This document shows, one piece after another, positions 24,211-33,455 of a stretch of 33,973 nucleotides of DNA. The stretch covers positions 1 through 33,973 of the IMG/VR virus record IMGVR_UViG_3300045970_000150, one strand, 5' to 3'. Position 1 is the first letter of the stretch; each line of letters begins with the position of its first letter. The stretch comes from a virus. Position numbers and translations under genes: made by a program. Under the pieces are notes generated by a model. That model was not told where the DNA came from and made no database searches. It saw nothing but the letters and a program-made list of their open reading frames with translations.

Positions 24211-24243
24211 TTTGATTTAATATCATAAATGATATTATCTTTA
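24211..24243 (+). promoter_or_regulatory. Promoter with embedded operator palindrome (XRE gene pair)
   Basis: TTTG (24211-24214) and TATCTTTA (24236-24243), 21 bases apart, fit the -33/-7 layout of Bacteroidota promoters, with TTTA in place of TTTG. Between them lies a perfect inverted repeat, TAATATCAT-AA-ATGATATTA (24218-24237). A repressor bound there would block the polymerase. The XRE protein encoded downstream at 24512 is the natural candidate for autoregulation, as in toxin-antitoxin or phage repressor operons (inference). Confidence 0.7.
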
Positions 24244-24294
24244 CATCATAAACTTAACACTGGCGGCAACAGGGTAATCACGGCAAAAATTAAA

Positions 24295-24510
24295 ATGACA
24301 ACAATTGCAACGTTCACGATCACCAGGACAACCCGCAACGGTATTTTAGAATTTTTAACCGAACAAGGATTTCGTTCAGAAAATGCCATTTTCGATAACC
24401 GTTTAGAGAAACTTCATTTCACACAGGACGATGGATCGAGAAAAGTAAGAGAATTGCGTTCAAATTGCAGACTTCCAAAATTAGCCAAATCAATCATTCT
24501 GAATTACTAA
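24295..24510 (+). CDS. Small protein of unknown function paired with XRE regulator
   Basis: This is a 71-residue protein starting at the ATG at 24295, about 50 bases downstream of the operator promoter. The same frame extends upstream to 24229, but that would put the start inside the operator. The sequence runs FTITRTTRNGILEFLTEQGF, then SENAIFDNRLEKLHFTQDDGSRKVREL and a basic end. It looks like a small alpha/beta fold rich in Arg and Lys. I recognise no family. Position, one base before an XRE gene under a palindromic operator, resembles a HigBA-type toxin followed by antitoxin, but no RelE signature is evident. It could instead be a regulator partner. The gene is AT-richer than the late genes. 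Confidence 0.65.
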   Translation: MTTIATFTITRTTRNGILEFLTEQGFRSENAIFDNRLEKLHFTQDDGSRKVRELRSNCRLPKLAKSIILNY

Positions 24511-24511
24511 A

Positions 24512-24796
24512 ATGAACCAAGAAAAAATCCAGGAAGCCAGGATAATGCTCTGTCATTACCTGGCTTCTTTAGCCAAAGAAAAGGGTCTGACAACCTATAA
24601 AATTGCAGAAATTACAGGATTTAAACAACCCAATGTCCACCGCATGTTGTCAGGCAGATATGCGCCGAGCCTTGATAATTTCATCAAACTATGCGATGCC
24701 ATTCAGACTTATGTTTTCATCATTGATAAAAATGCGGATGATGATTTGGCGGTGTTGATGAAAAATAGATGGATCGGAAAGGCTAATCAATCGTAA
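24512..24796 (+). CDS. XRE-family helix-turn-helix regulator
   Basis: This 94-residue protein has a clear Cro/CI-type helix-turn-helix at residues ~26-58 (LTTYKIAEITGFKQPNVHRMLSGRYAPSLDNFIKLCDA). Its C-terminal tail has a DKNADDDLAVLMKNRW motif seen in small Bacteroidota XRE proteins. It begins one base after the small gene at 24295-24510, so the two form a single transcript under the promoter-operator at 24211-24243. It is likely a DNA-binding repressor of its own operon, and either an antitoxin or a phage regulator. Confidence 0.85.
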   Translation: MNQEKIQEARIMLCHYLASLAKEKGLTTYKIAEITGFKQPNVHRMLSGRYAPSLDNFIKLCDAIQTYVFIIDKNADDDLAVLMKNRWIGKANQS

Positions 24797-24811: not shown

Positions 24812-24819
24812 TACTTTTG
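24812..24819 (+). promoter_or_regulatory. -7 promoter box for a candidate small RNA
   Basis: TACTTTTG matches the Bacteroidota TAnnTTTG -7 consensus exactly and lies 16 bases after the XRE stop, within an AT-rich run. No protein-coding frame of quality follows before a terminator at 24933. The -33 element is not clear. Confidence 0.5.
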
Positions 24820-24837
24820 CGGCGTTGTCACATCGGG

Positions 24838-24845
24838 TGCGTCAC
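24838..24845 (-). repeat. Inverted copy of GTGACGCA site
   Basis: TGCGTCAC is the reverse complement of GTGACGCA, which occurs twice in direct orientation just before integrase 1 (25097-25104 and 25110-25117). Three copies within 280 bases next to an integrase may be arm-type integrase sites or regulator sites. An 8-mer can recur by chance, so the proximity and arrangement carry the weight. Confidence 0.45.
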
Positions 24846-24932
24846 ATTTGCGGCACATCAAAAGGGCAACCAACCGGCAACCGGCACACATGACATGATC
24901 CCGCGGGCGGTCATGTGTCCTGGTCGGACAAC

Positions 24933-24962
24933 AAACGGATCATCCACAATGATCCGTTTTTT
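24933..24962 (+). terminator. Intrinsic terminator
   Basis: AAACGGATCAT (24933-24943), a CCACA loop, then ATGATCCGTTT (24949-24959) form a perfect 11-bp hairpin that runs straight into a T tract (24957-24962). This is a textbook rho-independent terminator, ending either the XRE operon or the candidate small RNA before the integrase promoter. Confidence 0.88.
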
Positions 24963-25061
24963 GTTTATTTCCCTTTCATATCACCGCGATCCCGCCGGTG
25001 ATCCACACAAACCCGGATGAACATATTACCACATTTTCCCGCTTTATTCCGGTTTATGTGT

Positions 25062-25119: not shown

Positions 25120-26289
25120 ATGAAAACCCGCTATGTGCTTACATTCGGCCGCACCGGCATTGATGAGGTGGACAACACCGGTTTGGTTCAGTTGAAAATC
25201 TATTTTTCCCGCACCCACCGCATTTTCCGTTCCACCGGCGTGCGCATCACCGCCGATGCCTGGGATGACCGCCGCGGGGTGATCAAACCCAAATCGGCAA
25301 AACACATTCGCGACATGGCCGCCATCAACACCGTGATCCAACGGTTGGATCAGCACGAATTTGATCTGATCCGGGACGGCCGCGCCATGACCGTGGCCGA
25401 TGTGGATCGGATCATGCAACGCGGGGATGATCACCGCGTGTTCAATGCATTCATGGCCGCCGAAATGACGAAGGAAAACGCATTGGCACCATCCACCCGC
25501 CGATCCCATGGCAACACCATCCGGTTTTTCAATCTGTTCAACGCGCGGGTCACGTTTGCGGAACTGACGTTTGACACCATCCGGGAATTTGATAATTTTC
25601 TGCGGGAACAATCGTTGGCCGACAATACCATCCACGCCCACCACAAGCGCATCAAACGCCATATCCAATCCGCGGTTGTGCAAAACATCATCCGGGCGGA
25701 TCAGAACCCGTATAAGGGATTTAAAGCGGTGAAAACTCAAAATGAAATGGTGGCGTTGACCATGGATGAAATCAACGCGGTGGCCGCGCTGAATTATACG
25801 GGTTTTGTGCAGCTGGATTGGGTGCGGGACATGTTTTTGTTTTCGTGTTTCACCGGTTTGCGGTTTTCCGATGTGTCCGCCCTGGAAACCACCCACATCG
25901 AAACGTTGCCATCGGGCGGCCATCAGATCGTGTTGCACCGCATGCGCAAAGTGGCGCGCCCGGTGTTCATCCCGGTGGATCAATTGTTTAATGGCCGCGG
26001 GGAAACCATTTTAAAAAAGTACATGCCGCAATCCGGGGTCATTTTCCCGCCAGTGTCCAACCCGCGATGCAATGAACTGATAAAAATCATCGCGCGGGAT
26101 GCCGGCATCACCCGGCGCGTCACCTTTCACACCGGCCGCCATACATGCGCCACACAAATCGGCGCGAAAACCAACGATCCCATGCTGATCATGGGGATTT
26201 TGGGCATCACAAAGATGGAAACGGCCATGGTTTATATCAAACTTTCTAAAGAAATCATGACGGCAAAGGTGTCACAAATCAATTGGTGA
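25120..26289 (+). CDS. int: Tyrosine integrase (Bacteroidota phage/transposon type)
   Basis: This 389-residue recombinase has an N-terminal arm-binding region (to ~110), a SAM-like core-binding domain (~110-205) and a catalytic domain with Arg248 (TGLRFSDV), Lys277 (HRMRKVA), His337-x-x-Arg340 (FHTGRHT) and nucleophile Tyr372 (VYIKLS). The usual second His (L-G-H) is replaced by Ile363 in LGITKMETAMVY, an uncommon change at a position that normally helps orient the scissile phosphate; some active recombinases tolerate a change here. It follows the repeated 8-bp sites and a promoter box, as expected for a phage integrase next to attP. The 3' end is nearly flush with the convergent gene at 26293. 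Confidence 0.92.
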   Translation: MKTRYVLTFGRTGIDEVDNTGLVQLKIYFSRTHRIFRSTGVRITADAWDDRRGVIKPKSAKHIRDMAAINTVIQRLDQHEFDLIRDGRAMTVADVDRIMQRGDDHRVFNAFMAAEMTKENALAPSTRRSHGNTIRFFNLFNARVTFAELTFDTIREFDNFLREQSLADNTIHAHHKRIKRHIQSAVVQNIIRADQNPYKGFKAVKTQNEMVALTMDEINAVAALNYTGFVQLDWVRDMFLFSCFTGLRFSDVSALETTHIETLPSGGHQIVLHRMRKVARPVFIPVDQLFNGRGETILKKYMPQSGVIFPPVSNPRCNELIKIIARDAGITRRVTFHTGRHTCATQIGAKTNDPMLIMGILGITKMETAMVYIKLSKEIMTAKVSQINW

Positions 26290-32460: not shown

Positions 32461-32563
32461 TTTTTGGGGATGGCCGCATATGACCATCATGGTGGTGTTG
32501 TTTGGTGTGGCGGTTTATTGCTTGATAATGGCAATTAGACAGAACAATGAGGACGGAATTTGA
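32450..32563 (+). CDS. Small single-pass membrane protein
   Basis: This is a predicted protein of 37 residues (or 47 if the ATG at 32420 is used) with one transmembrane helix (MTIMVVLFGVAVYCLIMAI) flanked by WGWPH and a polar RQNNEDGI tail. The frame overlaps the preceding gene's end and the start of recombinase 2. Start choice is uncertain. Such small membrane proteins are common in phage early regions. Confidence 0.5.
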   Translation: MQIDFWGWPHMTIMVVLFGVAVYCLIMAIRQNNEDGI

Positions 32564-33455
32564 AACATGGGTGGACGGGTTCATTGGTGACATGAACGCC
32601 ACGGTGGAAACGGTGAAAAACAACCGTTCCATCATGGCCATTTTCACCACCTGGTGCATGGTCAGCGGAATTCATCACAACACCATCACCCGCCCGGTGA
32701 TCATCCGGTTTAAAAATCACCTGGAAGAAACCGGCCACACGCCGTTGACGGTGGATTCCTATATGTCAACGGTCAAACGGTTCTATAAATGGACGGATGC
32801 CAACGCCGTATTTCCGGACGTGGCCGCCGGGGTGAAAACCAAAAACAACCATGGCGGATTCCGAAAAAAACCATTGGATGAAATCCAGGTGAAACAGTTA
32901 TTGGCCACCATTGACCGGGAAACGTTCATTGGCCAACGCAACGCCATCATCATTGAAACCATGTTGTGGTTGGGTTTGCGGTGCATTGAAATTCGCCGGT
33001 TGGACGTGGGGGATGTGGTGGCGATCCCGGCCGGGTTTGCGTTGTCGGTCATGGGAAAGGGTTGCCGGTTCAAAGTGTTGATGAAATTGCCGGATTATAT
33101 CCATGAAATGATTGTCAATTATTTGGCCATCCGAAACGCCATGCCGGATCAGCCATTATTTGTTTCTATATCCAACAACAACCGTGGCGGCCGGATCTCA
33201 ACGCGGAAAATTTCCATGATGATCAAAACACACATGCGCGGCGCCGGCATTGATTCGCCCGAATACACCGCCCATTCATTGCGTCACACATGCGGGGTCA
33301 TGATGATCAACGCCGGACGTGACATGAATGACGTGCGTGCCTATCTGCGACATACCAACACCAACATGACGGTGCATTATATCCGCTACAATGACGCCAA
33401 CCGGCGGTTGTTGGATAATTGGGTAGATCAGCAACGCCAAAAAATGAATAATTAA
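32547..33455 (+). CDS. Second tyrosine recombinase (XerC/D-like)
   Basis: This 302-residue recombinase has a full catalytic set: Arg145 (LGLRCIEIRRL), Lys171 (GKGCRFKV), His243-x-x-Arg246 (HSLRHT), His269 (LRHTN) and Tyr278 (VHYIRY). The N-terminal part (~1-100) is a compact core-binding domain without the arm-binding extension seen in integrase 1. It overlaps a small membrane gene and ends three bases before the LRR gene, suggesting a shared transcript. Candidate jobs are dimer resolution, DNA inversion or a second integration function. Confidence 0.92.
   Translation: MRTEFETWVDGFIGDMNATVETVKNNRSIMAIFTTWCMVSGIHHNTITRPVIIRFKNHLEETGHTPLTVDSYMSTVKRFYKWTDANAVFPDVAAGVKTKNNHGGFRKKPLDEIQVKQLLATIDRETFIGQRNAIIIETMLWLGLRCIEIRRLDVGDVVAIPAGFALSVMGKGCRFKVLMKLPDYIHEMIVNYLAIRNAMPDQPLFVSISNNNRGGRISTRKISMMIKTHMRGAGIDSPEYTAHSLRHTCGVMMINAGRDMNDVRAYLRHTNTNMTVHYIRYNDANRRLLDNWVDQQRQKMNN

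Follow-up and report, generated by a model that had tools for sequence, protein, structure and literature searches.

A probable self-repressing phage operon with interchangeable cargo and a conserved 5' leader motif

What kind of unit places an orphan small protein directly before an XRE regulator, behind a promoter that carries a perfect palindrome? The question is raised by a viral record of 33,973 bases, analysed in full and hereafter called the window, which encodes a terminase, a portal protein, a C5 methylase, an HNH protein and two tyrosine recombinases (Table 1). The upstream neighbour of the gene pair is a DUF6549 gene. The other flank is an integrase with the domains Phage_int_SAM_5 and Arm-DNA-bind_5, which we take to be typical of Bacteroidota integrases, and its relatives come mostly from unassigned gut phages and Bacteroides phages. 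A sequence-only reading had described the unit as AT-rich and operator-controlled, with the architecture of a toxin-antitoxin pair or a compact immunity system. The composition agrees with this description: the GC content is approximately 0.35-0.39 versus 0.5-0.58 in the neighbours, and GC3 of the two genes is 0.35 and 0.44 versus 0.60-0.68.

Table 1. Positions in the window of the predicted elements of the gene pair and of the recombinase genes.
Feature	Position	Strand	Remark
-33 box TTTG, Bacteroidota-type promoter	24211..24214	+	21 nt spacing to -7 box
Palindromic operator TAATATCAT-AA-ATGATATTA, predicted XRE binding site	24218..24237	.	Same 25-bp block in L002
-7 box TATCTTTA (consensus TAnnTTTG)	24236..24243	+	L002: TATCTTTG at equivalent position
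5' leader RNA motif CTG-GCGGCAA-CAG-GGTAATCA-CGGC...ATG	24260..24297	+	3-bp stem, heptaloop, CGGC, start codon
71-aa basic orphan protein (cargo)	24295..24510	+	ATG start 24295, stop TAA
94-aa XRE/Cro-CI HTH regulator, predicted autorepressor	24512..24796	+	HTH_26, HTH_3 matches
Intrinsic-terminator-like hairpin closing the unit	24933..24968	+	Weak: 1.2 expected in shuffles of the region
Two distinct genes for tyrosine recombinases	25120-26289 and 32547-33455		

The first gene encodes a protein with a pI of 9.8, which is as basic and as free of family matches as had been claimed. It gave no match in Pfam, NCBIfam or PADLOC and no significant match in the PDB. Toxin families of the RelE/HigB/HicA type were likewise without a match in these four libraries, and phrog_6052 was reached at an E-value of 0.03 only. 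Searches of viral contigs, of 84,980 species genomes, and of phages and plasmids found no relatives. AlphaFold models made without alignments were too poor for a fold search, with a pLDDT of 60 for this protein and 54 for its counterpart in the related locus L002 described below. ATG-initiated ORFs of at least 71 codons arose in 36 of 3000 shuffles of the same stretch (about 1%). A single nucleotide separates the TAA of the ORF from the ATG of the XRE gene at 24512, as previously described, and this one-base spacing makes a genuine gene more likely. The ORF is thus probably coding. A hydrophobic 47-aa ORF was also seen on the minus strand (24246-24389), antisense to the start of this gene. Antisense ORFs of at least that length occurred in 355 of 3000 shuffles (about 12%), and we therefore regard it as probably due to chance.

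The product of the second gene matches HTH_26 (E 3e-6) and HTH_3 (E 9e-6). Its closest relative is encoded by locus L002, part of a 57.5-kb viral contig, and is 64% identical over the full length; in the collections searched, these two make up the close XRE family. A distant full-length relative is found in phage Pan5 (26% identity, E 5e-8), where two small genes lie upstream and the C-terminal motif Y-F-IDK...L...M..RW is shared. No relatives were found in 245 genomes of one phylum (that of G001). The viral contig loci L003-L006, L011, L012 and L023 were rejected as close XRE relatives, L023 encoding a tail protein. Two further operons, of Bacteroides phage BF1-TP2 (gp73-gp74, adjoining an integrase) and of record MT835681, were reached via XRE similarity alone.

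The palindrome has 9-bp arms without mismatch and is located within a TTTG-N21-TATCTTTA promoter, the -7 box of which matches TAnnTTTG at seven of eight positions. It had been placed exactly between the two boxes. The perfect repeat was confirmed, but not its exact placement, as it takes up the spacer and extends 2 bp into the -7 box. By itself the repeat is weak evidence, because the window has seven sites with perfect inverted repeats of at least 9 bp and loops of at most 4 (shuffle mean 2.6). Local shuffling of 101 bp produced such a repeat in just 6 of 3000 cases. The 20-mer of the operator occurs once in the window, against 0.01 expected, and the 10-kb L002 locus likewise has one operator, as a self-regulator would have. 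A 25-bp block spanning the operator and the -7 box, TAATATCATAAATGATATTATCTTT, is letter-identical before the homologous XRE operon in L002, with diverged flanks. This conservation gives good support, at the level of sequence, to the earlier claim of operator control, and the XRE very probably represses its own operon via the palindrome.

The same arrangement recurs in related operons. We scanned the window, Pan5, 50 kb of BF1-TP2, L002 and L019 with the promoter pattern TTG-N17..24-TAnnTTT[GA]. A perfect palindrome of at least 8 bp was present at 4 of the 37 promoter-like sites in these five sequences, and all four belong to small-gene/XRE operons. The palindrome of the Pan5 XRE operon has 10-bp arms and covers the -33 region. 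In BF1-TP2 and MT835681 the space between TTG and TAnnTTTG holds a palindrome, the TGATA half-site of which resembles that of the window; read outward from the centre, the half-sites in the comparison of window, BF1-TP2 and MT835681 are AATGATATTA, TTTGATATTA and TATGATAGTA. Beyond L002, a search of all genomes and viral contigs with the operator pattern gave one viral contig match and one genome match, in unrelated sequence. A further match is in MED-G176 (L009, 1490-1513), where a palindrome and -7 box, ATATCATTTATGATATTATCTTTA, precede a GH16-like gene, which we read as chance or an unrelated regulator.

The first gene is not kept along with regulator and operator. In L002 it encodes an 88-aa protein dissimilar to the 71-aa protein (nothing by BLAST at E 100; shuffle z 0.1), and the rest of that contig yielded no copy of the 71-aa gene either. 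The XREs of BF1-TP2 and MT835681 are 73% identical and their leaders share 27 identical nt, while their cargo proteins have no significant similarity against shuffles, the best being a blastp-short match of the first residues at E 0.009. The exchange of cargo is seen in these two pairs, a number limited by the single close XRE relative in the collections searched. No cargo had a functional match. The RhuM-XRE loci (L014, L027, L030) served as a negative control; they lack both operator and leader, indicating that not every related XRE works in this manner. A Chryseobacterium plasmid (L029, 910-1404 and 813-850) encodes a 164-aa protein in which a cargo-like N-terminus is fused to an HTH. It is preceded by the leader and by an inverted repeat with 17-bp arms, which stands immediately 5' of the -7 box.

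Based on these observations, we suggest that the unit belongs to the acr-aca type, as a phage operon that represses itself and combines a conserved regulator and operator with interchangeable cargo, and we put the probability of this reading at roughly 0.6. Operons of this type have been searched for as same-strand genes of less than 200 aa, separated by less than 250 bp and including an HTH protein of less than 150 aa (PMC9765179). Our unit encodes 71 and 94 aa on one strand with a 1-nt gap, the orphan small protein coming first and the HTH last. Aca families have an inverted repeat inside the core promoter (PMC9410906), where the palindrome of the window is located, and one aca family is paired with different acr genes (PMC9410906, PMC9765179), as the XREs of window/L002 and BF1-TP2/MT835681 are with different cargo. 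Fused Acr-Aca proteins exist (PMC9410906), and the cargo-HTH fusion of L029 resembles their layout. The unit differs in its Bacteroidota promoter and its extra RNA leader motif. Against the reading, the libraries searched (Pfam, NCBIfam, PADLOC and PDB) place no operon protein in a known Acr or Aca family, no chain named Aca was among the 60 PDB matches listed, and no Aca model was among the Pfam and NCBIfam matches. Furthermore, XRE autoregulation with a small gene upstream is a general layout, in which any kind of protein may be the cargo. For the present unit, a counter-defence protein or some other early accessory protein is the most likely cargo; that the cargo acts against defence in particular is a tentative assignment, at somewhat below even odds.

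In brief, the operon would be a self-limiting switch, as acr-aca operons are, and would work as follows. Upon phage entry the promoter, free of repressor, would fire and the 71-aa cargo would be made at once. XRE translated from the same mRNA would accumulate, dimerise on the palindrome inside the core promoter and shut the operon off, and the cargo would stay low in the lysogen. The RNA hairpin 5' of the cargo start may provide a second control, probably translational, via a host factor or the ribosome.

The best surviving alternative is a plain autoregulated accessory (moron) operon, the cargo of which serves lysogen or phage physiology rather than defence. The AT-rich, foreign composition between late genes and integrase fits such an operon, as does the lack of a functional match for any cargo, and nothing speaks directly against it. 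The exchange of small cargo proteins is, however, the style of anti-defence cassettes, though not exclusive to them, and we consider the moron operon unlikely.

Less likely still is a type II toxin-antitoxin module in HigBA-like order, with the 71-aa protein as toxin and the XRE as antitoxin and autorepressor. As in HigBA, the small gene comes first, the HTH gene follows in tight coupling and the operator is palindromic. The XRE resembles HigA at the HTH; its profile matches HigA 6af3 at E 9e-6, and at 2e-8 when made from three members, and dnstrm_HI1420 is matched weakly. The three-member profile nevertheless has its best match to a solved structure in C.BclI (E 9e-9), and other repressors score well too. 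Toxin and antitoxin would be expected to move together, yet L002 keeps XRE and operator with an unrelated partner. The first genes of related operons also encode oppositely charged proteins, with pI values from 4.1 to 10.0, and no RelE/HigB family is detectable in the partner. The toxin-antitoxin proposal of the sequence-only reading is thus disfavoured. The C proteins of restriction-modification systems, C.BclI and C.AhdI, are autoregulators like the predicted XRE, but the operon here contains no restriction-modification genes, and the C5 methylase of the window is located approximately 20 kb away.

The leader of the window reads CTGGCGGCAACAGGGTAATCACGGC...ATG. The general motif is N3-GYGGCAA-N3'-(4-8 nt)-CRGC-(about 8-12 nt)-ATG, located 19-24 nt before the start codon. 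It was found in six further small-gene/XRE operons, one of them found only by a leader model. Besides this one, copies are present in BF1-TP2, MT835681, a second P. distasonis plasmid, the Chryseobacterium plasmid and two genes of one L011 operon, and an identical copy of the BF1-TP2 leader is present in a Parabacteroides plasmid. All leader-bearing operons end in, or are fused to, an XRE/HTH gene, a link that is in part ascertainment, as the records were reached through XRE similarity.

The stem occurs as CUG/CAG, CCG/CGG, GUG/CAC and AGG/CCU, and all cells pair. The covariation score was reached in none of 500 shuffles for the seven training sequences and in 1 of 500 with an eighth. The copies of the window, BF1-TP2, MT835681, P. 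distasonis and Chryseobacterium were seen first; L011a and L011b come from a scan that required pairing and therefore count less. Folding was no better than in shuffles, so the case for the leader rests on conservation and the covarying 3-bp stem. No Rfam family matches it.

We applied the seven-copy model to 13 records with a combined length of about 1.1 Mb. Leaving aside the copies used for training and the identical one on the plasmid, a single additional strong match, of 31.2 bits, came up in record G248. This match lies directly behind TATCTTTG and before a small gene, and the run of small genes ends in an XRE gene. G248 thereby holds three copies of the motif in two separate small-gene/XRE operons (L011 3918-4256; L051 262-298). 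The remainder of the searched records, more than 1 megabase, had no other strong match. In Pan5 a weak match (17.2 bits, E 0.02) coincides exactly with the start of the gene that opens the XRE operon. Across 167 genomes of another phylum (that of G002), three matches of 27.7-29.1 bits were obtained, none of them followed closely by the start of a small gene; the weakest of the true copies therefore come close to the noise of large genomes, given the 31.2 bits of the G248 copy.

The spacing between leader and start codon suggests translational control, which the leader probably adds. Aca2 is known to repress its own operon at both DNA and RNA levels, and the unit resembles that system in having an operator and a 5' leader hairpin in one operon. 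If the XRE, like Aca2, acted as a repressor on both the DNA palindrome and the RNA hairpin, this would agree with the covarying hairpin that operons of this class have 19-24 nt ahead of the cargo start codon. Unlike in Aca2, the leader does not track the XRE lineage. L002, which has the closest XRE and an identical operator, lacks the motif, whereas XREs only 28-33% identical to that of the window share it. Double repression by the XRE is for this reason improbable, and the leader is probably read by the ribosome or a host factor.

A phage immunity (CI/Cro-like) switch with the XRE as lysogeny regulator would suit a Cro/CI-type XRE near an integrase but is very improbable, as the window has one operator site and no divergent promoter, the regulator lies downstream of the cargo gene, and in BF1-TP2 another gene, gp78, distinct from the XRE unit, is annotated as a repressor. 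As for the compact immunity system proposed earlier, it is possible but agrees less well with the data than an anti-defence cargo operon.

A large structured-RNA screen of the human microbiome counts HTH-XRE genes as some of the most frequent neighbours of the RNAs it proposes (PMC8040213). The leader may represent a short cis-regulatory RNA of a class not described before, a mark of self-repressing, probably anti-defence, cargo operons of Bacteroidota phages and plasmids, an interpretation that we offer with more reserve than the anti-defence role of the cargo itself. Two handles, the regulator with a palindrome in a TAnnTTTG promoter and the RNA leader, pick out operons with orphan small first genes, and the leader model alone found the operon in G248 that protein searches had missed. 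To our knowledge, Bacteroidota have so far supplied few anti-CRISPR regulators. Should the cargos turn out to act against defence, leader and operator would be a discovery tool and a bait for new anti-defence genes in this phylum. If not, the autorepressed cargo operon would still be a common control unit of these phages, with a new 5' leader to explain.

Some minor observations were made along the way. Both strands of a P. distasonis plasmid (L028, 1990-2123) matched Thr_leader, at 36.7 and 31 bits, below the gathering threshold of 55; the matches probably reflect a terminator-like hairpin. Small GC-rich hairpins are found between genes in L002 (4960-4995), L013 (1206-1230, 1462-1488) and L011 (4160-4190, 4963-4982), possibly attenuators between cargo and XRE. 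In the window, repeated (A/C)..TTTGCGGC elements are located 5' of the integrase (24812-24854 and approximately 25063); two of these fit TAnnTTTG, and they are possibly tandem promoters. Pan5 (L024, ON968456.1) is recorded from the cyanobacterium Pseudanabaena; at 25323-25440 it has a TATCTTTG promoter box and a Bacteroidota-type XRE operon, and its host assignment may deserve a check.
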